This document shows positions 5,701 through 25,800 of a stretch of DNA of 33,369 bases, in pieces. The position numbers and the translations under genes are program-made. The DNA comes from a virus. The stretch covers positions 1-33,369 of IMG/VR virus record IMGVR_UViG_3300003873_000092. One strand, written 5' to 3'. Position 1 is the stretch's first letter. Each line of letters opens with the position of its first letter. The notes under the pieces were generated by a model. That model was not told the DNA's origin, did not search any database, and was given only the letters and a program-made list of their open reading frames with translations.

Positions 5701-6294
5701 ATGGCGCGACCAAAAGGAACAACACGGGCGAAAAAGCCCATACTCAAAAAAGAGTATGAACGGCTCACTCACGCAGTGCATAAAAGCATTGTTATCAAGA
5801 GTCCAACGAAGATGAAACTCATACGAGCTTTTACGCTGCTCTATCTTACAGGGTGCAGAGTGAGTGAGATAGCAGAACTAAGAACCCAAGATGTGAAGAT
5901 GATGATACAAAATAATGAGTACTCACTCTCTAATGACACTAAGACAAAGTCAGCACGGCTCATTACATTTGATGAAAACTATGCACAGATAGAGTTCTTA
6001 AAAAAGATACTTCCGCTCGATGATGGGTACCTGTTTGCAAAAAACAACTCAAACAAAGCGATGACAGTCAGTGCATTAAAACTCCTTATGAATAAGTTCA
6101 TACATAGAGTTCTTGGAGAGCTGTACTCTACGCATAGCTTTAGAACTGGTTACATCACGACTGCACATCAACAAGGATTATCGTTAGAACATATAAGAGA
6201 AGACATAGGGCATAAAAACATAGCAACAACAGCCCGCTATGCAACAGTGACAAGTGCAGAAATTTCCCACGGGAAAACTTTGCGTGAGTGGTAG
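5701..6294 (+). CDS. Catalytic-domain-only tyrosine recombinase
   Basis: This 197-residue protein corresponds to the catalytic half of phage-integrase-family recombinases. All signature residues are visible: Arg53 in GCRVSEIAEL, Lys81/83 in the beta-hairpin, His145 and Arg148 in THSFRTG, His171 in IGHKN and the nucleophile Tyr180 in ATTARYATV. It has no SAM-like core-binding domain and no arm-binding domain, whereas XerC/D are about 300 residues. Its place, 95 bp before parA and after a strong palindrome, suits a multimer resolvase for a plasmid form or an inversion enzyme. It is unlikely to be the phage integrase, since a full-length one sits at the att site. An upstream AAGGAG supports the start. 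Confidence 0.8.
   Translation: MARPKGTTRAKKPILKKEYERLTHAVHKSIVIKSPTKMKLIRAFTLLYLTGCRVSEIAELRTQDVKMMIQNNEYSLSNDTKTKSARLITFDENYAQIEFLKKILPLDDGYLFAKNNSNKAMTVSALKLLMNKFIHRVLGELYSTHSFRTGYITTAHQQGLSLEHIREDIGHKNIATTARYATVTSAEISHGKTLREW
6263..6276. repeat. Dispersed 14-bp motif TTTCCC-AC-GGGAAA (parS-like candidate, copy 1)
   Basis: TTTCCCACGGGAAA has 6-bp inverted arms around AC. It lies in the last codons of the recombinase gene, 114 bp before the parA start codon. The same arms recur at 11584, 18851 and 30335. A ParB-binding centromere next to parAB is the natural hypothesis. Confidence 0.55.
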
Positions 6295-6315
6295 TGCCAA
6301 AATTAACTAGGCACT

Positions 6316-6353
6316 TTAGAGCGTATAGTTAATACAAAAGATATTTATATAAT
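6316..6353 (+). promoter_or_regulatory. parAB promoter with shared upstream box
   Basis: A box, TTAGAGCGTATAGTTAA (6316-6332), is followed after exactly 15 bp by a consensus -10 hexamer TATAAT (6348-6353), 37 bp before the parA start. The same box with the same 15-bp gap to a -10-like hexamer lies upstream of the giant gene (28223-28186, minus strand). The end of the box occupies the -35 position, so the box may be a regulator-binding site or an alternative -35. Confidence 0.6.
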
Positions 6354-6389
6354 GGTGAACTACAGACATTACTAATGAGGGGTTAGAAA

Positions 6390-7004
6390 ATGAATATAAC
6401 AATAGCACATACAAAAGGCGGAGTCGGTAAAAGCACTTTAGCTTGGCATCTTGCACACGCTTTAAAAGAGATAGGTAAGAGTGTAACCATAGTTGATTTA
6501 GACTTTCAGCAGACACTTTTCTTTATAAACAAGATCCGTGGAGTTGATGACATAGAAGTCTTACAGCCGCAGACAGTAGCCGAAGTTATGCAGATACTCG
6601 TAACTGAAAAGAAAAGAAGTGACTACTATATAGTAGATGTTGGTGGCTTTGACAGCGACATCAACAGAGCAGCACTGGACTTCTCACATAAAGTTCTCAT
6701 ACCAATAAGTGAAAGTGTTACAGAGGTTCTAGGCTTCAAAACATTTGAGGGAATCATAGACGAGCTTATACTAAAAGATACTGAGTTTGATGTAGTGCTA
6801 AACAACATCCATCCACTCACAAGAAACTTCTCTACAATAAAAGAAGCAGTAGGAGACAAATACAAACTTCTTGACACTGTAATAAGAAGCAGAAAAGTTT
6901 ACAAAACAACTCTCGGAGTTGGTGCAAGTGTGTTTGATACAAATAATGAAAGAGCAAAAGAAGAGATAGGAGGGCTTAGAGATGAACTTATCAGCCATAA
7001 ATAA
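6390..7004 (+). CDS. parA: ParA-type partition ATPase
   Basis: The protein has 204 residues. The deviant Walker A motif KGGVGKST (residues 9-16), VDLDFQQ (35-41) and the Walker B IVDVGG (81-86) identify the ParA/MinD family. There is no N-terminal HTH, as in type Ib plasmid ParAs. ParA binds nucleoid DNA in its ATP form and, with ParB on parS, positions and segregates low-copy replicons. The downstream parB overlaps it by 23 bp, so the pair is co-translated. In a phage this implies a plasmid-like lysogenic state, as in P1 or N15. A shared promoter box lies upstream. Confidence 0.9.
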   Translation: MNITIAHTKGGVGKSTLAWHLAHALKEIGKSVTIVDLDFQQTLFFINKIRGVDDIEVLQPQTVAEVMQILVTEKKRSDYYIVDVGGFDSDINRAALDFSHKVLIPISESVTEVLGFKTFEGIIDELILKDTEFDVVLNNIHPLTRNFSTIKEAVGDKYKLLDTVIRSRKVYKTTLGVGASVFDTNNERAKEEIGGLRDELISHK

Positions 7005-7854
7005 AATAACAGCAGGGAAGACTCGCACGAGTGGTATAAGTGATTTTGCAGAACTAGAACTCTCTAAAGTCTATGCAAACCCAGAACAGCCTCGTAAAGA
7101 GTTTGATACTCACTTGCTTATAGAGTTAGCTCACGATATAGAGACAAACGGACTCTTACAGCCCATAGTCGTAGTTAAACGAGATAATGGCTACATGATA
7201 GTAAGTGGTGAGAGAAGATACCGTGCTCACAAAGAGTTTACATCTATAAGAACTATAAAAGCACACATCATAAACGCAGATGATAGCAAAGTTTTAGAAC
7301 TGGCACTTATTGAAAATATTCAAAGAGAAGATTTGACAGACTTTGAAATAGCCGTTCACATAGGAAAACTTCAAGCAAGTGGTAATTACTCTTGCAAAAG
7401 AGACTTAGCAAAAGCCATAGGAAAGTCACAATCTTATCTCTCAAAAGCTTTCTCGTGCTTGAAGCTAGATGAGAGCATCATAAAAGACATAGAAGAGGGA
7501 AAGAGAGATGTAGGTTTGTCTGTTCTTGATGAAATCGCACGAGTAAAAGATAAACCTATGCAAACAGAAGTTTATAGGATGTATTTATCTGGTTTCCTAA
7601 CTCGCGATGGTATTGCTGAGTATAGGGACTTGATTATGGAGACTCCTGAAGTAGCAGATGTTAAACCTAAAGTTAAAAAAGTACAAAAAAAGAAGTGGAT
7701 CATAAATGAACTCGATGTAAGTGGGAATGAAGAAGATGGAAATTCTTGGTATACAACAGAAGCATACCTCCAATACTGGAAACTAAATATGCCTAAAGAT
7801 TTTCCAAAAGAGACAACGCCTCAAAGATATAAAATCATAATAGAGGAGATATAA
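6982..7854 (+). CDS. parB: ParB-type partition protein
   Basis: This 290-residue protein has the standard ParB order. The N-terminal ParB/Srx (CTPase) domain carries NPEQPRK (33-39), GERRYRA (76-82) and ENIQREDL (111-118). A helix-turn-helix follows at about 137-160 (KRDLAKAIGKSQSYLSKAF). The C-terminal part is more variable and ends in a tryptophan-containing segment not typical of chromosomal ParBs. ParB loads at a palindromic parS site and stimulates ParA. A large ParB paired with a small HTH-less ParA is chromosome-like in domain order. Its site in this genome may be the repeated TTTCCC-NN-GGGAAA motif, but that is inference. Confidence 0.9.
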   Translation: MNLSAINKITAGKTRTSGISDFAELELSKVYANPEQPRKEFDTHLLIELAHDIETNGLLQPIVVVKRDNGYMIVSGERRYRAHKEFTSIRTIKAHIINADDSKVLELALIENIQREDLTDFEIAVHIGKLQASGNYSCKRDLAKAIGKSQSYLSKAFSCLKLDESIIKDIEEGKRDVGLSVLDEIARVKDKPMQTEVYRMYLSGFLTRDGIAEYRDLIMETPEVADVKPKVKKVQKKKWIINELDVSGNEEDGNSWYTTEAYLQYWKLNMPKDFPKETTPQRYKIIIEEI

Positions 7855-8691: not shown

Positions 8692-8902
8692 AGGGACTAT
8701 GACATTAGAACAACTAGAAGAGGAAATTTATTCTATAGCAAAGATGCCTTTCAGGATAGATATAACTACTGAGTACAAAAATAAAAGTATTTATGTAGAT
8801 TTTGGATTCGGTGTTCACTTTGAAAATAGCGGTACACATATAGATGACATATTTAAAAGTGTATTAACCCAAATACAAGGATATTTCAATGAGAGAAATT
8901 AA
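8684..8902 (+). CDS. Hypothetical protein, 72 residues
   Basis: The ATG at 8684 (MTKGTMTLEQLEEEIYS) is preceded by GAGGGGAAG and overlaps the previous stop by 8 bp. The longer frame from 8573 runs inside the previous gene and is not used. The acidic N-terminal helix is followed by a beta-rich segment (FRIDITTEYKNKSIYVDFGF) and a final helix. It overlaps the first YopX gene by 14 bp. No family was recognised. Confidence 0.5.
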   Translation: MTKGTMTLEQLEEEIYSIAKMPFRIDITTEYKNKSIYVDFGFGVHFENSGTHIDDIFKSVLTQIQGYFNERN

Positions 8903-9302
8903 ATTTAGAGCATGGGACTTTGGGAAAAAAGACAATTCTGCATACACAGAACGAATGTCTGATCCGTTTTATGTTTACAGTGATTTTGTTGTGTTTGAGA
9001 ACGATGCGATTATGACACCTATGTTGAGAGATATTGACAGAGGTGATAACAATAAAAATCGTTTTAAGCTCATGCAATACACCGGTTTAAAAGATAAAAA
9101 TGGTGTTGAGATTTATGAGGGGGATATTGTAGAGTGGGTAAGCGAAGATAATGAGAAATTTAATCACGAAATAATATTTAAAGATTGTTGTTATTGTGCA
9201 AAAAGTGCATATGGAAATATTTCACAGATAGGTGGAACTATGGGGTCTGGCAAAAATATCTATATCGAAGTTATCGGGAATATTTATGAGAATGGGGAGT
9301 AA
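8889..9302 (+). CDS. YopX-domain protein, copy 1
   Basis: The protein has 137 residues. The family hallmarks are MREIKFRAWD at the start, MQYTGLKDKNGVEIYEGDIV in the middle and IEVIGNIYEN at the end. YopX (PF09643) proteins are very common in phages and prophages. They have an N-terminal small domain and an SH3-like beta domain, and their role is unknown. Two paralogues lie at 9306 and 13892. They sit among nucleotide-metabolism genes in the early/middle operon. Confidence 0.85.
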   Translation: MREIKFRAWDFGKKDNSAYTERMSDPFYVYSDFVVFENDAIMTPMLRDIDRGDNNKNRFKLMQYTGLKDKNGVEIYEGDIVEWVSEDNEKFNHEIIFKDCCYCAKSAYGNISQIGGTMGSGKNIYIEVIGNIYENGE

Positions 9303-9305
9303 GTG

Positions 9306-9713
9306 ATGAGAGAGATTAAATATAGAATTTGGGATAAGAAAAGGAATAAATTTGCAAAACAGATAACAACTTTTAAATTAGATAGAGAAGGCAATATCAA
9401 CTTAATTGTTTATTTAGATAAAGCAAATAAAACAAGGGAAATAACAGAGCGAGAAAAAATTTTTACAAATGAATTTGAACCAATGCAATTTACTGGACTT
9501 CTTGACAAGAATGGTGTTGAGACTTATGAGGGTGATATCATAAGAGCAAAAAACTTTGTAAAAGATGCAAAAACAGATAGAGATTGCATTGACATAATCC
9601 ACTTTAAAGACTGTAATTTCTTATATGGAAATTGTTACTTAACTCAATTAAAAGATTATGATTATGAAGTAATCGGCAACATCTACGAAAACAAGGAGCT
9701 TTTGAATGACTAA
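9306..9713 (+). CDS. YopX-domain protein, copy 2
   Basis: I chose the ATG at 9306 (MREIKYRIWDKKRNK) as in its paralogues; a GTG at 9303 is also in frame. The 135-residue protein shows MQFTGLLDKNGVETYEGDII and YEVIGNIYENK. It starts 3 bp after copy 1 and overlaps the next gene by 8 bp. The hinge between the N-terminal motif and the TGL motif is Lys-rich and unlike copy 1, so the pair is an old duplication. Confidence 0.85.
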   Translation: MREIKYRIWDKKRNKFAKQITTFKLDREGNINLIVYLDKANKTREITEREKIFTNEFEPMQFTGLLDKNGVETYEGDIIRAKNFVKDAKTDRDCIDIIHFKDCNFLYGNCYLTQLKDYDYEVIGNIYENKELLND

Positions 9714-12848: not shown

Positions 12849-13836
12849 CCCAGAGAGCACAGAGACTACAAATAAGATAGTCAACGGAAACCCTACAGGT
12901 ATAGCAAATTTTGTAAATCCATCAAGAGTAGTTTATAAAACTATTTTTGAGGGACAGATAGCACGATTTTGGAATCCTGCAACAGTAAACCTTGTAGCAG
13001 ATAAAAAAGCTGTAAAAGGTTTGAGTGAGGCAGAGTTTAGAGCGTATGAGCTTACTTTTGGAAAACTCATCTTTAATGATAGTGTCATCACAAATAGACT
13101 TATGGATAATATTAACAATATTATTACAGACTCTATAGCAAATGCTTGTATAGCATTCCAAAGTGGAGAAGAGGCACTACATAGTTACTCTTACGCTTTT
13201 ATTGGCGATGATGTTCTTGGAAGTACAGATATTTATGAACTCTTTAGAAAAGATGAAGAGCTGAAAAAACTTGCAGATAAAATCAATGCTCGATACAGTT
13301 TGTTTGATGAAGAGGTACAACTAAGTGATGGAGAAAAAGCATTCGCAGCCATAGCAAACCTATGTTTAGAGGGTGTAAGCTTTCCTGCTGGCTTTATAGT
13401 TGTATGGGCATTAGGTAGTAAGATGATGGGAAGCGCAAGTATGATAACTGAAATCAGCCGTAATGAACTAGGCTCACACTTGCCACTTTACCAAAACATT
13501 TACAAACACATCAAAGAAGATACCGGTGTAAACATAGATGATCTTGCAAGAGATACAATCATAGAAGCAGGAGAAGATGAAAAAAGCTACTTAAAATACT
13601 CAACAAAAGGCGTAATGGGCTTCAGCGAAGAATCTATAAATAACTTTATGGACTGGATAGTAGATAACAGACTCAGAGAGCTAGAACTTGAGCGTTTACC
13701 ACAAAAGATAAATACTAATGATGGACTGATAAAAATATTTAAAAGTTACTCAGAACTCAACGAGACAAAAACAAACTTCTTTGAGGGAACTGTAAAGAAC
13801 TACTCAAAGCAGAGTTTAGATATGGATGATTTTTAA
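12832..13836 (+). CDS. nrdB: Class I ribonucleotide reductase, radical-generating small subunit
   Basis: With the large subunit NrdA it reduces ribonucleotides to deoxyribonucleotides. Metal-ligand candidates in the 334-residue protein are Asp83, Glu114 and His117 (SGEEALHSY), Glu180 (LCLEGVSF) and Glu212 and His216. The radical Tyr121 (H+4) is present. The last pair is spaced E-LGS-H, one residue longer than the usual E-x2-H. The C-terminal tail NYSKQSLDMDDF has the form of tails that dock on NrdA. No large subunit is seen in the window, so it may pair with the host NrdA. The start at 12832 has GGAGGAG upstream. Confidence 0.88.
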   Translation: MKKIYNPESTETTNKIVNGNPTGIANFVNPSRVVYKTIFEGQIARFWNPATVNLVADKKAVKGLSEAEFRAYELTFGKLIFNDSVITNRLMDNINNIITDSIANACIAFQSGEEALHSYSYAFIGDDVLGSTDIYELFRKDEELKKLADKINARYSLFDEEVQLSDGEKAFAAIANLCLEGVSFPAGFIVVWALGSKMMGSASMITEISRNELGSHLPLYQNIYKHIKEDTGVNIDDLARDTIIEAGEDEKSYLKYSTKGVMGFSEESINNFMDWIVDNRLRELELERLPQKINTNDGLIKIFKSYSELNETKTNFFEGTVKNYSKQSLDMDDF

Positions 13837-13891
13837 AATAAAGGAAAAATTAGTTATGATAGAAGAAGTCAAAGATTATATAGGAAAGAGT

Positions 13892-14257
13892 ATGAGAGAT
13901 ATTAAATTTAGAGCTTGGGATGAAGTAGATAAAAAGATAGTAAATTGGGATGAACTAAACTTTTATGCCTATGAGGGAACACTTATGCAATACACTGGTC
14001 TTAATGATAAAAATGATGTTGAAATTTATGAGGGGAGTATAGTTCAGGTTTACAATACAAAAATCAAGAAGTATGAAGTTGGTAATATAGCTATGAACAA
14101 TTTAGGTTGCTGGTCGGTAGTATTAAAAAACATTAAAGTGCCTATGTTCGAATTTATTGATAGTAGATTATCATTAGTGCATGATTTTTCAAGAATTGAA
14201 GTTATCGGAAATATCTATGAAAATATAGAACTTTCACAAGGAGAAAAATATGAATAA
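13892..14257 (+). CDS. YopX-domain protein, copy 3
   Basis: MRDIKFRAWDE, MQYTGLNDKNDVEIYEGSIV and IEVIGNIYEN define the family. I chose the ATG at 13892 by alignment with the two paralogues (AGGA lies 6 bases upstream). An in-frame ATG at 13856 with AAGGAA would add 12 residues and is also reasonable. The 121-residue protein lies 4 kb downstream of the other two copies, after nrdB, and overlaps the next gene by 8 bp. Confidence 0.8.
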   Translation: MRDIKFRAWDEVDKKIVNWDELNFYAYEGTLMQYTGLNDKNDVEIYEGSIVQVYNTKIKKYEVGNIAMNNLGCWSVVLKNIKVPMFEFIDSRLSLVHDFSRIEVIGNIYENIELSQGEKYE

Positions 14258-14633
14258 TGAAGGTCTTAAAATAAGCATGACTGTTACAGATGACAAATTA
14301 TCTCCACGAGATGATGAATTTGTAAAATGTATTGATTTTAATATTCAAGACTATAAAAATAAAATCTTTGATAAATTAAAAGAATATGCTAAAAATTATA
14401 ATACTGCTGATTGTATATTTGCTACACGAAAAATTATACATCAGATTCCTGCATCATTAAATTACGAACAAGGCACGCAAGCAATAGGTTTAATTTTATA
14501 TGGTCTTCCACTGTTAGAATACAATTTAGAAGATAAAAATACAGTATTAATGGATTATCAATTAAAATTCATTAATATGCATCAGAGACCTGCAAAAATT
14601 ATTTTACTTGAGCAAGTAGATCATTTTCAATAA
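14250..14633 (+). CDS. Hypothetical protein, end of the early/middle operon
   Basis: This 127-residue protein is not recognised. It is mostly helical (IQDYKNKIFDKLKEYAKNYN, then ATRKIIHQIPASLNYEQGTQ) with an aliphatic C-terminal segment. It starts within the last codons of the third YopX gene (AAGGAG upstream) and its end overlaps the convergent integrase gene by 30 bp. It therefore closes the plus-strand operon. Confidence 0.5.
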   Translation: MNNEGLKISMTVTDDKLSPRDDEFVKCIDFNIQDYKNKIFDKLKEYAKNYNTADCIFATRKIIHQIPASLNYEQGTQAIGLILYGLPLLEYNLEDKNTVLMDYQLKFINMHQRPAKIILLEQVDHFQ

Positions 14634-15608
14634 TCCCGTCAATAACCCCACTAGCCATCTCACTAGACTTTGCTCTGCCATTGCAGAAACTATTACATTT
14701 CGAAGATAGTGAATTCCAAAATTATCATCATTCAATCTTTTTTTTAATTTATTTACAGCCTTGCGAATATCAACAATGTGTGAGCCAGTCTTGCGAGAAG
14801 TAAATACCCACTCACTTACTTTAGGTATCTCTTTGAGATTCTCTTTGATAACATCAGGGAGAAATATCTTCTGCTCTTCATTATTTTTAGTATTGCGAAG
14901 TATATAGTAAGAATTATCTATGCTCACATCTTCCCACCGAAGCGTAAGTATCTCTCCTTTTCTTCTGCCTTGAAGAGCAAATAGAAAAAGTGTTAAGTAA
15001 AAAGGATCTTCTTTAAACTCTGCATATATTGCTTTGTGTATTTTATTGAGTTCCATACCTGCTTCACTTACTATCTTTTTAGTTTTAGGAAGTTTTATAA
15101 CTATGCCATCAAGAGGATTGTATGAGATAAGTCTGTTTGCAATGGCACTTTTAAAAGCAGGGGAGAGTGCTTCAAGAGTCTGCTTGATGGTTCGAGGGGC
15201 AAGCCCTAAATCTTCTTGACTCTTTATGCTTTGTTTTATGTGAAGTTGCCGAATATCAATAACCTTTTTCATTCCACAAATAGGACTTACATATCTTTCA
15301 TAGTGACTTTTACGAGTTTTCGTATTGTTTGTATCAGGTCGTAACTCAAAAAAACTTTTCATAAACTCATCAAGAGTAACCTTATCACTAAGCACAGCAT
15401 CTTTTTTATCATTCTTAATCTTCATAAGGTCGGCACGAGCACTGAATATCTTGTCTTTTTTACTCCAACCTACTTTAGATGTTAAGTCTATAAGACCGCT
15501 ATATTCTTTTTTTTCATAAGTAAATCTATACAAAAATATAGAATATTTTTTATCAGTCCATAACCCAGTCTCTACTTTCAGAGGATAATCTTTCCTATCA
15601 ATTGCCAT
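14604..15608 (-). CDS. int: Phage integrase (tyrosine recombinase) with disrupted catalytic C-terminus
   Basis: This 334-residue protein has an N-terminal arm-binding-like part, a core-binding SAM-like region (about 75-170) and a catalytic domain. The catalytic domain shows Arg in GRRKGEILTLRW, Lys in ILRNTKNNEEQ, and H300/R303 in GIHYLRN. After SAMAEQ (308-313) the expected G-H and T-x-x-x-Y motifs are missing, and the frame reads a Leu/Trp-rich tail of 21 residues. Another frame from about 14672 gives SEMASGVIDGIIENDLL, which looks like the natural end of such integrases. A deletion of about 90 bp with a frameshift explains this best. The gene is next to the att region and is probably unable to recombine. 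Confidence 0.75.
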   Translation of the reverse strand: MAIDRKDYPLKVETGLWTDKKYSIFLYRFTYEKKEYSGLIDLTSKVGWSKKDKIFSARADLMKIKNDKKDAVLSDKVTLDEFMKSFFELRPDTNNTKTRKSHYERYVSPICGMKKVIDIRQLHIKQSIKSQEDLGLAPRTIKQTLEALSPAFKSAIANRLISYNPLDGIVIKLPKTKKIVSEAGMELNKIHKAIYAEFKEDPFYLTLFLFALQGRRKGEILTLRWEDVSIDNSYYILRNTKNNEEQKIFLPDVIKENLKEIPKVSEWVFTSRKTGSHIVDIRKAVNKLKKRLNDDNFGIHYLRNVIVSAMAEQSLVRWLVGLLTGLLKMIYLLK

Positions 15609-15635: not shown

Positions 15636-15656
15636 GGTACCAAGATGGGTACCAAG
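15636..15656. promoter_or_regulatory. Left pair of integrase arm-type sites (candidate)
   Basis: GGTACCAAG occurs at 15636-15644 and again at 15648-15656, a 12-bp spacing. The pair lies just upstream of int and about 107 bp from the tRNA-derived core. A matching pair with identical 12-bp spacing lies on the other side of the core. Confidence 0.6.
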
Positions 15657-15762
15657 TACGCAGATAGAAGTATAGGTAAATATATATTAAGATAGAATTA
15701 CAAAGCCCAAAGATAGGCAAATAAATAGAGAAATAAACATAAAAGTAATCAAGCTCTTTTGT

Positions 15763-15807
15763 CTCATAACGGAGTGGTCATGTGTTCGAGTCACATAGAA
15801 CCCACCA
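15763..15807 (+). other. Attachment-site core: 3' part of a CAT-anticodon tRNA
   Basis: The sequence runs from an anticodon loop (CTCATAA, anticodon CAT at 15765-15767) through the 3' half of the anticodon stem (CGGAG). It continues through a T-arm (ATGTG-TTCGAGT-CACAT, perfect 5-bp stem), the acceptor strand AGAACCC, discriminator A and CCA. The 5' half is absent: bases before the loop do not pair with CGGAG. It is therefore a tRNA fragment (Met or Ile2 type) of the kind used as integrase crossover sites, not a working tRNA. Integration would restore the host gene's 3' end. Confidence 0.75.
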
Positions 15808-15877
15808 CTTGTAAACTCCCTAAACACTGAACTTTCAAAGACTTTAAAAAATAAAAATTCTATTTAAGTTTTCAATG

Positions 15878-15895
15878 GGTACCAATATAGGTACC
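15878..15895. promoter_or_regulatory. Right pair of integrase arm-type sites (candidate)
   Basis: GGTACC occurs at 15878-15883 and 15890-15895, again 12 bp apart and about 70 bp beyond the tRNA-derived core. It mirrors the left pair. Two arm pairs around a tRNA core is the usual plan of attP for lambda-type integrases. The intervening sequence 15609-15899 holds no other gene. Confidence 0.6.
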
Positions 15896-15899
15896 GAGA

Positions 15900-16583
15900 T
15901 TAACTTATTTTTTCATCACTAGAAACTTCAATTACTCCCTCTGTATTCTGCTCTTGTAACATTAACTGTTCAAGCTGTTCAACACTCATTTCATTAAGTT
16001 CTTCAGCACTATAGTTTCCATTGGAATTAAATATAACAGTATCAGGACTTTTTCCAAAACGAGCCTCTTTTGCCATCTTGTGTATTTCACTACTTGCTTT
16101 GATGTCTGCCTGTTTGATTTTAGTTACATCTTTTTTCACTTGGTTACTAAGTACAATACTACTGAGCATCGAGTTCTTAAACATTTGCGCATCAAAGTAA
16201 TCCGCCTGCACAGATGCAAGCAGGGCTATATCTGCTTCTGCCTTAGCTTGAAGTTCTGCATTAGAGTTTGCAAGGTTAAGTATGCCATCTACTTCTATGC
16301 TTCCTTCTTTCGTAACTCCATGATATTTAGTAATGCGATTTTTCATCTCATCATAAACACTTGTAGCCTCTAGCTCTTCACGCAATTTTTTCGCAGTCTG
16401 TTCGACTTTTCCAGCTTTAGAACCTTTAAGCCATATGCCGCCGTACTCTTCTCTGTCGTCATTCTTCCAGTCACTCAGCGTTGCAAGACCTACATTTTCC
16501 TGCTTTGCTATGTCACTCAAAGTCATATTCATAACTTCAAATAAAGCCCTACATCGAAATCGTATCTCTATATCCCAAGCCAT
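15900..16583 (-). CDS. Probable terminase small subunit
   Basis: The protein has 227 residues. The N-terminus is a DNA-binding helix-turn-helix (RCRALFEVMNMTLSDIAKQE then VGLATLSDWKND), as in small terminase and DUF1804 proteins. A long helical middle follows (LANSNAELQAKAEADIALLA) that could form the oligomerisation core, and the tail is acidic and Gln/Glu-rich. Small terminases recognise the packaging site and bring in the large ATPase/nuclease. It is the last gene of the virion operon, its start overlapping the DUF5664 gene (TAATG). No large terminase is in the window, so it must lie beyond the right edge if this reading is right. Confidence 0.65.
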   Translation of the reverse strand: MAWDIEIRFRCRALFEVMNMTLSDIAKQENVGLATLSDWKNDDREEYGGIWLKGSKAGKVEQTAKKLREELEATSVYDEMKNRITKYHGVTKEGSIEVDGILNLANSNAELQAKAEADIALLASVQADYFDAQMFKNSMLSSIVLSNQVKKDVTKIKQADIKASSEIHKMAKEARFGKSPDTVIFNSNGNYSAEELNEMSVEQLEQLMLQEQNTEGVIEVSSDEKIS

Positions 16584-16867: not shown

Positions 16868-19800
16868 CTACTCCACCACCTGTATCTTTTTAAGTTGATC
16901 TTCTATCTGGTTTGTTATAGTTTGTAACTCTTCGTTCTTTTTGTCATACGCATCTTTTATCATACGCTCTTTTTGTGCTTTAGATAATTTCTTATCGTAT
17001 GTTATATTCTCAACACCTATCTTGATCTTAGTAAGCGTTCCATTCACTTTTTTAAGCATCTTATCTAAAACTAAATACGCTTGATTCTCTTTTGAAGACA
17101 TATACTCTTTTACATTCTTACCTTTATCCGTGAAAGCCTCTTTTCTCTTTTTGTCGTAACTTGCTTTTACAGAACCAGCTTTTTGCATAAGTTCATAGTA
17201 TTTTTCAGTATATTTAGTACGAGTATCTATAGGCTTGCCATGAAATCTATATGTTAAAAATTCCATAGGGTCACGGGCAAAAGGTCTTGCGCCCCATGCT
17301 TTTTTATTCCATAGCATATTCTCTGTAGCTTCTTCAACCATTTTTGCAGTAAGCCCAAGATAACCATCAACATAGTGCTGTATCTTAATAGGACTTGCAC
17401 CTGTAGCTCTCCCTAGCTCTTTGTAAAGTAAAGGAGTTGTAGAAAAATACTGGTCACTTAAATCATCAAGATTTTTCATATTATATGGAACTATCGGAGC
17501 ACCAGTCCAGTTCTTATTTGTCATATCTTCAAGCATAGGCTGAAACAGTCCACTTACATCACCAACACTAAACATTGTCTTTGCACTCCATACAAAGTCT
17601 TGTGCAGCTTCTTTTCCATGTTTAGTATAAATTCCGTCTGCTATTATCTCAGGTATAGCAGAAAAACCGAACCCGATGTCATAAGGTCGAGGTATTTTTA
17701 TGTGTTTATCTCCTATAAAGAAGTGCCAATACATAAGCTTATTGTCACGAGTAAGCTTTTTGTATCTGTCATCATCTCTATTTTGTAACCAAAGAGCAAG
17801 TGTAAATCCAACTATCATTCCACCAGTAGCATAGATCTTCACTTTGTGTTTTTGTATCTCTCCGAGGTCATTTTTAAACTTCACTGCATTACTAAGCTTC
17901 ATCTCTCCGCTTATTGAGAAAATTCTACGAGCTGTTTTATCTATACCAACTATTCCAGCTTTCATAAAAGGAACAGTTGCCATAAAACCACTTATTGCAG
18001 TATCACTTCCTTTTATTGCAAAGTCCGTACTGACCTCACGAGCTTCATAAGAACTTTGAGCATTACTCTTTCCTGCATTTTGTGCAAGCTCAAAATCTCC
18101 AACTCTCGTACCATACTCAAATATATCAGCACCATACTCCATAGCACTTATCACCCTTGAGAGCACATCAAAACCACGAGCTACTTTCAACATTTCCATA
18201 GCTTGCGACTCGCCGCCAAGTGTTGTTCTGCGAGTTCCATATCCTGCACCACTTGCCATAAACTCTTTGTAAACTTTATTTTGTGTTATAAAATGATACA
18301 TCCCACGCATACTGCTATAAATAGGTATAAACTTGTTTTTACTGAGTACACTTGCACTGACTGTATCTCGTGCAAAGTTTGTAAGATAAAAAAGAGGATT
18401 ATTTGTAATATTCCAAGTCATTATATTTTTTATACTCATCAGCCCTTGAACAAAATAACCATACTGAGAACCTTTAAATGATGTGAGTGCATCAACAAGT
18501 GCAGCATCTTTTGTCTCAAAATAGACCCTCTTATCATCTATTATTGCACTATCTATATAACTGCTGCCATCACTCAATGGTGGATGCCCATGAGTCCAAA
18601 ATTCTAATGCAGATGGATTATCTAAAAGATTCTGCTCTATCTCATTTACATCTACTATCACATCACTTTGAATATCCCCACTGAGTATCTGTCCATCTTT
18701 TGCAACAGTCACACCAAGTTCTGCCATTATCTGTGCCACTTTCTTCGCCTGCTGTTGCATATCACTTTTTACAAGTTTATCTGCTGTACTTATCTTTGTC
18801 GCATACACACCACCCATATCACTCTTCTCAAGCATCTCGTAAAAGAGAGTTTTCCCTCGGGAAACTAAAGCCTCTTTTATGTTTGCCTGCAATCCATCCA
18901 AAATGTTCTCCATAATGTTACCAAGAGAATGTGTTCCACCTGTAAGCCTTTTTCCAATAGTGGCACTTCCTACACCGCCATTTTGAATAGACTCTATAAC
19001 ACGATTAAATGGCACATAGTTTTTATTCATCTCTTTAAAATTCTCTCTTTGAGAAGTTGTTATTAAGTTCATGGCTACATAAAAGTCAAGCATCTTATCG
19101 TTAAAATCTTGATACTCTTCAAAAACTTCTTTAAACTCAGGATGTTGTTGTTCAAGCTTGAGCCCTGCTGCTATCTCATCTTTTGTAATAAGATTCTCTC
19201 TTCCTTGTTTCATAAGCTCGCTCGCTCTTTTTGCCACAAGATAATCAGAAAAAAGCTTCACTCTCTCTTTTCCAACACTCGTTACAGGTGCAAACACATC
19301 ATTAAGAGCTTTTCCAGAGTAAGTGATGTCTCCATTCTCTTTTACAGTAGGAACCCCAAAGTTCATAGTAGAGTGAAGTATAGAACTCACGCCATTGACA
19401 AGTTGGAGTGATTTGTACGCACTATCAAGTGCATCCCCACTTACATCGCCTTTTATCTCAGCTTCTATTCTCTTGATTGTATGAAGTCTATCTATAACTT
19501 TTTGTCTTATATCTTTACCTATCTCTTTTTGACTTCTCTGTATCTTCTTAGCAACACTGTTAAGTTTTCCGCCTTGCTTTCCTCTAAGAGATACATCGCT
19601 CCCTTGATAATAAAACTGGTGCATACCCTCTTGCAGTTGTTGCATTTTCTTTTGAAGCACTTTATCACTTGCAAGTTTTACCTCAAAATCTGCCAACATA
19701 TTAGGAGCAACATTTTCAAGTGTATTGTAGTTTGAAAGATAGAGTCGCACAAACTCAGCAAATCCTTCACTCACCGCTTTTTTAGGGTCAGTAGTATAAC

Positions 19801-22800
19801 TCAGCGCTTTTACCTCTTCTTTGTTTTTCAAAATTGCAAGTCTGAAAAAACTGTCTTTTGCTTTTTTTGTAGGGTTTTTATAGTAAAAGTCCAAGTAGTG
19901 AGCCATCTCATGAGCCATTATTTCTACATCACTGTAGTTCTTTACACGAATAGCAGTATCATCTCTTTTATAAACCCCAAGAGCGCTTTTTCCTTTCAAC
20001 TTACCATCATATAAGCGATTCCCTATAATATCACTCAAATATACACGAATACTGTCTGCGTTCATAGGCTCATCAAGTGTTGGAAGAGAAACAGCTTTTG
20101 CACCTATGTAGTACACATCGCCAACAGGTCTCTCTGGAAGTCCGCTAAAGCTATAACATGGAACATAGTTCACACCTGCTTCATCATATCCATTCGCACG
20201 TGCATAGTTATTTGTAACTTCTGTCTCTTTTATGTTTTTACTATCGAGATTGCTTTTACTCTTTTCTTTCAGTTCTTGTGATGCAGTGAGTGTTTTTGCC
20301 GATTGCACAGGCATCTTCATAAAGCTTTGTGTGTCACTATTGTCGCTCTCTTTATTTTCACTCTCAAGTATCTGCTGCTCTGTATAGGCTTCCTTTATCT
20401 TCTCTATATCAACATTTTTTCCATCATGTGTAAACTCATCGGTAATAAACTTCGTATCTGCAAGTTGTGCTGCTTGTTGCTTTTCTCTCTCTTTGAGTTT
20501 TACCTCTGTATCTTTTATCTCCTGCTCATACTCTTTTATGGTGTTAAAGTACTTCGCTTTTCTCTCTTTGAGTCCATCTATGTATTTTTTGAGCTTCTGC
20601 TTTTTCTCTGCTTCATCTTTTATGTTCTCATACTTAGGAAGATTTTTCTCTTTTAAATTTTCATCTATCCCCGCTATGGCATTCGTATAGTTTTTAATAG
20701 AACCATTTTTAATCTCTACATCTGATCTAAGCTTCTCAACAAGATTACGCAAGTTGTTAGCATCTACTGCAGCATTATCTATCACTCTCTGCTTTCTAAG
20801 TCGCTCTCTCTCAAAAGGGTCACTCTCTAAATCTATAATAGCTTGATAAGGATCCGTAGTGTTTGTGTTGCTTATGCTTGATACACCATCTTCTACATTT
20901 ATGTCACTGTTGTCAGTAAAACCATATATGTCATTAAACCCTCTTTTTGCTATTACTATGTCATAACTACGTCTGTCAAATGTTCCAAGTTGGAAAAATT
21001 GATGCACTCTTACCTCTGCATTTTCATTCCCTTGTCGTACACCTCTGTTGCTTCGCTGCTCTATCTCATCAGGGCGAAAAGGAATATCAAGCTGATATAT
21101 GTCAGTTGTTTTTTTGTTTAAATCCACACCGACACCAAGCTTTGATGTGTTGCCTATAATGACTTTTATTTTTCCATCATTATACATATCCATAATTCTG
21201 TTAAGCATATCTGGCTTGATTGAACCTTTATAGACTTTCCCTGTAGTAGGGTTTACAAAACCTGCACCATTAACAAACACGACCTCATTATCATCAAAAA
21301 GACCAGTATCGAGTATTTTATTGCGTATCTCTTCATGGGTGCTTGTTGTGCTTCCGTCCTCGTTCTTAACAGTAAGCCTGTCTAAAAATATTATCTGCCC
21401 ACTGTTAGAGTTCTCTTTATACTGCTTACTTACAAGCTCTATAGTTTTTTCTATCTTGTTATTTTCTGCTGTCTGTTCATCCTCTTGTATAAGCTGAGTG
21501 AGTTCCTCTTTTGTAAATTGAGATTTCCCTTTGCTTCCTATATCATAAAGTCTCAAATCAATGCTTGCACTTCTCCCAGCTCCCATCGCCACAAGAGGTA
21601 TCTCTACATTTTCAGGTAATTCTTGCCCGCTTTTTACAAGCTTACCGTCTTCTATTGCTTTTAAAAGTCTATGCTGCACATCTCCAAATATTGCTTCGCC
21701 TGCTTTTGAAAGCTTCAGGTAGTGCTGTACATCTATCTGTTTAGGTCGTGGTAAGTCTGGCATAGATTCAAAACCTTTGTAGTCAACAAATCTATCAAGT
21801 ATCTTTGACAACCAGTCAAGGTTTTTCATGCTCGCTAAACCTTCACGTTTTACTATCTTACCAGTTGAATCCGTTGTCTCATAGTTTTCTATATCATAAA
21901 AAGTATCTACAAAATCTTTTGAACTATCTATGCCATACTCTTTAAGTATATTCTCGTCAAGATGCTGCAAAAGAGTATAAAGTTCAAGCGGTTTGTTTGG
22001 GGTAGGTGTTCCAGTCAAGAGGATGACATTGTTTCCATTATTGTGTTGAGAAACATATTTGCTCTTAAATCTAAAGTCATAACTTCGCATACTCCCAAGT
22101 GTAGCGCCGTATGGCTGCGCTCCCTCTTTTATGTCTTTAGTTGTAAGTGCTTTTCCATTTTTGTCATAGTACTTTATAGCTACAGTTGCACCAAGTCCAC
22201 CTTTTACATCGCTTCCTTGCATCCCTATGTTCTTATAGTACTGCACTTCATCTGCTATAAGCCCATCAAATCCAAGCTTTGCAAAGTCAAACTCTACATC
22301 TCCACCATAAGCAGCTCTGAGTCCGTTTTTAAGAGCTTGCCTCTTATTCTCAGCACTTACTATCTCTTTTTGCTTTTTCTTGCTTGCACCTTCCTCTGCC
22401 TCTTCTGCTTTTATCATCTGTGCAACCAAATCATCTACATACTCACTTAGCACATCCGCAGGAAGCCCAAATTTTTGGAACATTGTGTCGCCTATTATTG
22501 TAAAGTCGTAGCGATTGTTTGCAAGATCAAAAGCCATCTGTTCTTTTTCATCTTTAGAGAGTTGTGTCCACTCTTTTGCATTGCCTTTATTCTTTCCAGA
22601 TTTTACCTTTGGAAACTCAAACACACTTGCATCAGGATAAAGCTCTTTTACTGTCTCTTCCCACTGTGCGATCGTATTTACAGGAACGACAAAAAGAGGT
22701 TTTTTCATCACACCTTGGTCAAGCAGGTTTTTAACAGCTACAACAGCAGTGATTGTTTTACCACCCCCAGGAGCAAAAGCTAAAACACCTTTTTTATTAA

Positions 22801-25800
22801 ATACTATCTTCTCTGCTCCCTCAGCTTGATGTGATTGCATTTTAAAAGGTTTACCTCTAAAACTTTTAGGCATATCTCTAAGCAGTACTCCAGTCATAGC
22901 AGGACGCACATAAAAGTTAGATTGACGATTATATTCGTCTGTAAGCATATCAGCCAATCCCTCTTTCTCTATGAAGCGCATTACATCAGGAATAAGCACG
23001 TCATTGAGTTTCTTCTCTGCTTCCATAGTTCTTTGGATATTTTCACTGTCACTCTCATCTTTTGTTTTTGGTGCAAGTGCTGTTTTATTAAGGTATCTGT
23101 TATAAAGCTCTATGCGATCATACTTTCCATCAAATACTTCAGGATTGACACTCAGTTCCCCTGTCTGCTTTTTAAGCAGCTTGCTTTTTATAGCTTGTGG
23201 CAACCAACTCTCTCCGCCTTTTACTGTGATTGATTTAAAAGGTATTGGAGTAGGGATTATATCTTTTAGCTTTTTTTGTTGTGTTTCATACGCTTTTTCA
23301 CTTATAGTGCCAGCTTCATGCATGATTTCAAGCTTTTCAAGTTTCTGATACACATTCCCAGCATAGTACATAAATGCAAGCTGCACTTCATTATCTGCAC
23401 TTCTTACAAACAAACCTTTATCTTCAAGCTCTTGTATCTCTTTTGCACTTAAAAATTCATACCCTTTTGATGTGTCAATGGCACTCTCACTGTTTGCATA
23501 AAAGAGAGCCTTATCCATAAGCGGGCTATTTATGTTTATTTTAAGTTTACCACTGTCTTTAAACCTTGTCTTCTCTCCATATACAGGTGCAGGGTTAAAA
23601 TCTTTGTCAAAGTAACTCATATACTCCTTTAGCTTTATCTCTGCTCTATGATTTTTCATAAACTTCTTAAAAGCCAAATCATTATGCGGAGATTTCTCAT
23701 ATATCTCTTTGTAGGACTCTATCTCTTTGAGTGCAGTATTGAGCAGATTCTTATCTTCTTGTTGTATTGCATCTTCTGTAATCGTCATTATTCTGTTCAA
23801 GTGCAATGCCTTATTTGCATTAACACCTTTAAGCACTTCTCCAAACATTGCCTCTTGATCACTCTCTGAAAATGTCGCCTCTTTATCAAAGTATGTAAAA
23901 GTATCTGCATTTATTTCGCTGTGAGGTTTTATAGTATCTACTATTTTAAATATATAACCATTGTTTTTCGCATACTCTTTTGCTTCATCAAAATTGATAA
24001 AATAATTATCTTCTGTTTTGCTCTTTTTGAGTTTCTTATAAGGTTCATAGCTTACTTTAATGTTCTCAAATTTTGGAGTACCTTTTACTATCCACCCCTC
24101 TTTACCCATTTTTGTTTTATCTTTTCCTACGACAACTTCATCGCCTAAAAGATTTTCAGGATGCGCTATAAAGTACTCATTCATTGCAAAACCATTTTTA
24201 GAGCCTATATTTACAAATTGATTATTGATGTCTTTTTGTCTTGACTCCACACCGGCAGGACGCTTTTGTATAAAGATAATATCTATCATTGTATCTGTAT
24301 GTGCATTTTTAGCTTGTGATTTTTCAGGAAGTCTGTAGGCACCTATAAGGTCGCCTCTATCCATAAGATACTTTCTTAAAACCTTTGCAGTAGTTGTGCC
24401 ATCCATAGTTCCAGTACTTGTCATAAATGCCACGACACCATTGTCTTTTACTTTATCTATTGAGTGGGCAAAGTAAAAATTATGTATAGCTTTAAAAGCA
24501 GGCTTTATTGTCATAGCGTGTTCACGCATTAACATCTGCTCACTTGCAAAAGGTACATTTGAGATTATAAGGTCGTAGTTTTTCCCCTTAAATGTTTCGT
24601 ATGTTTCATCATGAAATGTTTTTATCTGAGGGTAGAGTCTTTTTGTAACTTCTATATTTGTTTTATCTATGTCAACAACATCCCACGAAGCATCAGGATT
24701 AAAACCTACAAAGTTTCCACTCCCTACTGCTGGCTCTAAAGACTTATCCATAGGTACACCTGCTTTTTTAAGTGCATCGTACATAGACTCTACAGTAGCA
24801 TAGTTTGTGTAGTGTTGATTTACTGAGTTCTCATTAACAGTATCGAGTCCACCTTCGCCAGTATAGTGTCGAAGTATCTCACGGTCTGCCTCTGTTATCT
24901 CTTTGAGTGGTTTTTTTATGATGTCAAGAGCAGCTTTGTTAAACTTCTTTCTCTCACCTTTTGTAAGTTCTACAGGAGATTTCCCTTTTAGGCTGTAGCT
25001 CTTTGCAGTACTGCTTGGTTCATCATGTTTTGGTAGAACTGTGTCTGCATCAGTTGGTTTTTGCTCATTATGTTTATCATTTTGAGTGGTTGCAGGTCTT
25101 TCCACTCGTTCATCTGCATTGGGTATTTGAGTTGTATTGCTTCCATATCCACTAGATCTTGTAGGTCGCTTATTGTCTGTTGATACTGCTTCGTTGCTGT
25201 TTGTATCTGCTCTTGTGTCAGGTGCGCTTTGTTTTTGAGTTGGTATTCCAACTGTATCACTTGCTCCGTTAGCATCTGCACTGCCTGTATCTTTTGCTCT
25301 TGATTGTTCATTGCTTTGTACCTCTGTATTAATTATATTATTATTATCTTTAAAGTTATCAAAAGAGTTGTTGTTTTTTAAATATTGCTCAATGATAGCA
25401 CCTTTTTCTGTATCTCCTTTAGCATCTAACCCAGTATCAGAAGCTTTTTTTACTGTTTCGTCTGTTATATTTTTATTGAGATAACTTCTATGTAAATTGA
25501 ATTTTGCATTACTATCTAATGCATCATAAGCTTTGAGAGCTTCCTCTTTAAATTTACTTTTTTGTATTTGTAACTCAGCGTGTTCTACCATTTTTGGCAT
25601 TGTGTTTTTGTTTTCAATAATAGCTTTATTTGCTAATTCAATAGCTTTTGCTCGAGTTGAAGCACCTTTTATAATCATACCGCTTCTCTTCTCTGTTACA
25701 GCCCATCCTTTACCATTATCATCTTGCTTCACAAAACCATCATATCCATCAGCTAGTTTTAAAGGATACCCATAAGCAACAGTTGTTGTATTGTCAGGTT

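Follow-up and report, generated by a model that had tools for sequence, protein, structure and literature searches.

A putative attP that would rebuild an elongator tRNA-Met in a predicted Sulfurimonadaceae phage, and related integrases that appear to rebuild or replace the host tRNA

The window (the whole stretch of DNA analysed here) is an entire linear IMG/VR virus record of 33,369 bases. It contains a tyrosine integrase gene (int) and, just upstream of it, the 45-bp 3' half of a CAT tRNA (CTCATAACGGAGTGGTCATGTGTTCGAGTCACATAGAACCCACCA), flanked on both sides by putative arm-type sites in the form of two 21-bp tandem pairs (Table 1). Genes for a primase, ThyX, the ribonucleotide reductase small chain, ParA, ParB and a short second tyrosine recombinase lie to the left of this site, and genes for a P22-type portal and a capsid protein lie to the right. 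This gene content confirms that phage genes continue on both sides, as stated in the preliminary description of the sequence. The record is linear and its ends share no exact match longer than 10 bp, so that a circular form is at most presumptive. We found no DNA relatives of the window among named phages, and the relatives of its integrase among named phages are remote (below 60% identity in 38 of 38 records).

The short tyrosine recombinase, ParA and ParB genes adjoin one another (positions 5701-7854) and recur in nine of the 15 related loci searched, among them the integrated prophages L008, L014 and L015. For ParB, a search of the window with a parS consensus gave only weak matches with four mismatches, and no parS site was identified. 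A single reading frame of 3762 codons (16868-28156) lies between the candidate attP and the portal side and is kept in relatives at 64-87% identity. Three small genes (8889-9302, 9303-9713 and 13826-14257) have similar starts (MREIKFRAWD, MREIKYRIWD and MRDIKFRAWD), and their regions resemble each other in DNA comparison; they look like repeated members of one family.

The tRNA piece comprises the anticodon loop CTCATAA, the T arm, the acceptor strand AGAACCC, an A and CCA. It lacks the 5' half, as had been described. The window, a partial genome, contains no complete tRNA according to ARAGORN. The reported GGTACC pairs at identical 12-bp spacing were also recovered, at 15636/15648 and 15878/15890, and a fifth GGTACC lies at 6026. 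The five copies in the window exceed the 1.61 expected from shuffling (a count of five is reached in 2 of 100 shuffles), and the exact arrangement GGTACC-N6-GGTACC occurs only in the two pairs, which are identical at 18 of 21 positions. The first gene past the distal arm matches DUF1804 (Pfam accession PF08822, 1.2e-4, under the curated cutoff) and phrog_756 (6e-4), and the same neighbour occupies this place in L020, L022, L024 and L010.

Table 1. Features of the integrase gene and putative attachment site in the window
Feature	Position	Strand	Description
int, tyrosine integrase	14604..15608	-	334 aa, truncated; Pfam PF00589, 1.6e-10
Junction of 85-bp out-of-frame deletion	14670..14671	-	alignment with L020
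int-side arm pair (putative)	15636..15656	+	tandem 12-bp repeat GGTACCAAGATG GGTACCAAG
CTCATAA anticodon loop	15763..15769	+	inferred place of strand exchange
Putative attP core and elongator tRNA-Met 3' half	15763..15807	+	anticodon loop to CCA
Distal arm pair (putative)	15878..15898	+	GGTACCAATATA GGTACCGAG
First phage gene past distal arm	15900..16583	-	weak DUF1804, DNA-binding match

We compared arms across 30 chosen regions upstream of int, leaving out regions that were cut short or whose int start was unlocated. The best tandem repeat has a spacing of 12 bp in 28 of these regions and of 13 bp in L133; in L017 the best spacing is 11 bp, at a different place. The fraction of shuffles matching the tandem repeat is at most 0.05 in 25 of the 30 regions (all except L008, L009, L026, L117 and L120). 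Tandem 12-bp repeats thus occur in relatives at the place of the int-side arm, and the repeated word differs among them (GGTACCAA, GGTGTTCACTT, GGTAACCACTT and others). We rejected GGTACC as a functional motif, as relatives with GGTGTTC, GGTGTCC, GGTAACC, GGGGACG and other words have the same tandem spacing. Because the word varies, the conserved feature is the 12-bp tandem spacing and the palindrome is incidental. More distant integrases of the same family lie beside a CTCATAAGCC tail, upstream of int, in L131 and L133; this tail is probably that of a tRNA-Ile2. Other distant integrases adjoin different tRNA tails and also have tandem arms with the same or nearly the same spacing.

The relatives compared were six integrase relatives in viral contigs, ten loci from an alignment query (partly on the same contigs as the six), and genome loci. 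Eleven of the 12 genome loci were credible (ten titled Campylobacterota, one Proteobacteria); L019 (29% identity, Bacteroidota) was dropped. Both prophage ends were recovered for G001, G004, G005, G007, G008, G011 and the virus record G018 (n=7), and G002 fits the same end pattern, with its ends on two separate contigs. At the int end, int and a single arm pair are followed by CTCATAAC, the displaced host 3' half and, beyond that, other DNA. The remaining arm pair, of the distal type, is located at the far end and is absent from the int end. The G001 assembly additionally holds an empty attB (L060), identical to attL over all 44 available bases leftward and to attR over all 53 rightward; since both an empty site and a prophage are present, the G001 population is mixed. 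Judged by their sequences, the attL and attR of these relatives are the product expected if the window layout is an attP. The split of the arm pairs between the two ends bears out the attP reading offered in the preliminary description. CTCATAA falls within the 10-11 bp core common to attL and attR of G001, G005 and G008, and we infer that strand exchange occurs in this loop.

The preliminary description had proposed a search for host genomes in which a full tRNA gene ends in the same 45 bp. We searched 228 genomes from the family to which G007 belongs (labelled Sulfurimonadaceae at the G007 locus) with a tail query that accepted either G or A at the variable position and tolerated up to one mismatch, and read 30 of the matched loci. 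The tail is held by 37 of the 228 genomes (41 matches in total). Such hosts exist: four matches (G021, G115, G175 and G177, hence 4 of 228 genomes) are identical to the 45 bp of the window, and all four are the ends of complete elongator tRNA-Met genes. Identity with these hosts spans 48 bp, from CTCATAA to 15810, with none leftward. Their 5' strand GGGTTCT pairs with the AGAACCC of the window at 7/7 acceptor positions, whereas the commoner host type, GGGTCTT, gives 6/7 pairs. When the four host 5' halves are joined in silico to the window 3' half, 7/7 acceptor and 5/5 anticodon-stem pairs form, and ARAGORN reads the product as tRNA-Met. ARAGORN alone cannot separate hosts, as it also calls the joint with the mismatched GGGTCTT type. 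The exact 45-bp tail was found in no other viral contig. Because the phage half matches one host tRNA type, an orphan virus contig gains a host prediction, namely Sulfurimonadaceae, which are sulfur-oxidising Campylobacterota, with a GGGTTCT-type tRNA-Met.

These observations suggest a route of integration. The integrase would bind both tandem arm pairs and the core, and would recombine the CTCATAA of attP with the anticodon loop of the host elongator tRNA-Met gene. Joining the host 5' half to the phage-borne 3' half would thereby complete a tRNA-Met at the distal-arm end. The host's own 3' half would be displaced to the int end, as is seen in the relatives. The window would represent the un-integrated state, circular or packaged.

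We consider it very probable that the site is the un-integrated attP of a temperate Sulfurimonadaceae phage that has a P22-type portal and rebuilds tRNA-Met. Matched arms, a single int and phage genes to the left and right are best explained by an un-integrated form (or by identical tandem copies); the earlier preference for an un-integrated form over a prophage end is supported on the same grounds. If one phage had integrated twice in tandem at one tRNA-Met, the junction of its two copies would be identical in sequence to an attP, but we regard such a junction as improbable. Tandem insertion at tRNA-Met does occur, so the caveat about tandem elements in the preliminary description was a real one: L004 is a tandem of two different elements whose arm pairs differ in type, and it has a second int at a distance of about 6.9 kb. 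The window, however, has only one int and arms of one type. An internal att site is also present in two related records, whose lengths (43,136 and 47,494 bases) are near those of integrated prophages (40.7-47.9 kb in G001, G005, G007 and G008; 35.5 kb in G018). The mixed arms and second int of L004 led us to reject it as a rebuilding attP. Its smaller element (L004:1-7765), about 6.9 kb long and with its own integrase and arm pair, shares the tRNA-Met with a larger phage in a tandem arrangement and looks satellite-sized.

The attR end of an integrated prophage also shows a tRNA 3' fragment beside int, yet it is a most unlikely identity for this site. The recovered attR ends have no second arm pair and run into other DNA, whereas in the window the usual phage gene comes after a second arm pair, and on this basis we rejected it as a prophage end. 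There is a similarly slight chance that the GGTACC pairs are fortuitous or serve only in int regulation and that the tRNA piece is a relic. The int-side pair stands 28 bp away from the start of int, a position at which repressor binding is possible; relatives, however, have tandem pairs upstream of int that vary in sequence at constant spacing, and the distal pair moves to the opposite end in integrated prophages.

The integrase of the window is closest to that of L002 (86% protein identity over residues 1-315), relative to which 85 bp are absent. The deleted stretch holds the histidine of LGHND and the tyrosine of KKY, which are invariant in 6/6 aligned relatives and which we take to be catalytic residues; a remnant of int downstream of the deletion is recognisable in another frame. 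The window thus lacks an intact integrase with these residues, though its site is of the tRNA-rebuilding attP kind. As the deletion removed the catalytic histidine and tyrosine, the window copy probably cannot recombine by itself. The 85-bp gap may instead be an assembly error or a minority variant. If the deletion is real, the integrase of this copy is probably dead, and the phage would depend on another integrase or on extrachromosomal maintenance; plasmid-like maintenance is conceivable.

Relatives of the window use the tRNA-Met gene in two ways. In the rebuilders G004, G007, G018 and G002, a complete tRNA-Met stands at the far end; the core is 47 bp in G004, 48 bp in G007 and 50 bp in G018. 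The window, L002 and L010 are rebuilding attP forms that carry the 3' half. In the replacers (G001, G005 and G008), the host 5' half gives way to non-tRNA sequence after CTCATAACG(G), and the arm pair and a complete tRNA-Met follow the broken half. The core is 11 bp in G001 and G008 and 10 bp in G005, and the attP forms L003, L005 and L007 have the same plan. In replacers, the tRNA gene is immediately adjacent to attP and separates the distal arm from the first phage gene.

Complete phage-borne tRNA-Met genes are thus present in L003, L005, L007, G001, G005 and G008, and in G011 besides a rebuilt tRNA. Those of L003, L007 (as L024), G001, G005, G008 and G011 score 65.0-71.6 bits with the Rfam tRNA model (gathering score 29; L005 was not among the tRNAs scored). 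Phage tRNA and displaced host gene are alike at 59/77 positions in G001, 66/77 in G008 and 70/76 in G005. The second complete tRNA of G011 lies beyond the arms and differs from that of G005 at one position. The G004 and G011 elements are 18-19 kb long.

In the MAGs G005 and G008, no elongator tRNA-Met was found other than the displaced half and the phage-borne gene. Judged by their stems, the remaining tRNA-like CAT matches belong to the initiator or Ile2 type. Among 41 G005 relatives (G005 included), 29 have an elongator-type match: 24 have one and five have two. Four of the two-match genomes (G005, G061, G082 and G093) have a family integrase and G094 does not. The host elongator tRNA-Met is apparently single-copy, though a copy may have been missed, since the assemblies are largely MAGs and 12 of the 41 gave no match.

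We mapped the two modes onto an integrase tree of 15 rows, with L004 set to unknown mode and eight unknown-mode rows dropped. The modes are mixed on the tree, which requires five changes; well-supported branches force two of these (three in a tree with L004 as a rebuilder and the eight rows kept), and the base of the tree is poorly resolved. All three states occur in the Sulfuricurvum trio G004, G005 and G011, whose integrases are 93-96% alike. The window int is nearest to that of L002, which has the same rebuilding mode. In protein and DNA comparison, most of the other window genes examined resemble those of the replacer L005 more closely (91% versus 70% to L002 for the gene beyond attP), with the exception of ParB (62% to L005 versus 67% to L002). 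The backbone is nearest L005 and the int-attP module nearest L002, which is most simply read as the result of module exchange between phages. We lean, with some reserve, towards one Campylobacterota phage integrase family that switches between rebuilding the host tRNA-Met and replacing it, with modules exchanged and with the G011 element, which looks like an evolutionary intermediate, between the two modes.

As a well-formed instance of known biology, the window site is of less interest than the mixed family of its relatives. PMC10865867 describes mycobacteriophage Boilgate, in which a tyrosine-integrase attP with a 43-bp core rebuilds the tRNA. Similarly, the window attP carries a tRNA 3' half, shares a 48-bp core with the host, adjoins int and has paired putative arm sites on both sides of the core. 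Unlike Boilgate, its target is the elongator tRNA-Met of Campylobacterota, its arms are 12-bp tandem repeats whose word varies among relatives, and its int is broken.

The same paper (Guerrero-Bustamante and Hatfull, 2024) describes tRNA-dependent lysogeny, in which integration through a core of about 10 bp disrupts a host tRNA and a phage tRNA of that isotype takes its place. Relatives G001, G005 and G008 resemble this system in their 10-11 bp core and broken host tRNA, and these three together with L003, L005 and L007 carry a complete tRNA of the same isotype. Unlike in actinophages, the hosts of the replacers are Campylobacterota, and the tRNA gene directly beside attP also sets the replacers apart. 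The window itself shares 48 bp with the host, in place of a core of about 10 bp, and rebuilds the tRNA. Lactobacillus prophage Lj965 is named there as a possible further case (PMC10865867). A Sinorhizobium paper mentions a similar substitution (PMC11476347), and the accessible portion of PMC12429752 reports no such features. For SNW-1, a Sulfurimonas prophage, no tRNA genes and no att split reads are reported in the portion of PMC11290706 at hand. Among the literature matches listed, there was no published case of tRNA-dependent lysogeny in Sulfurimonas, Sulfuricurvum or Campylobacter.

From sequence comparison, the present family appears to extend tRNA-dependent lysogeny beyond Actinobacteria. 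The authors of PMC10865867 state that the evolutionary relation of the two modes is unclear and that prevalence outside actinophages needs study. With rebuilding, replacing and double forms among such closely similar integrases, the origin of the replacing mode becomes testable, as does the question of direction left open for actinophages, because G011 looks intermediate. If this reading is true, some environmental Campylobacterota would live on the tRNA-Met of a prophage.
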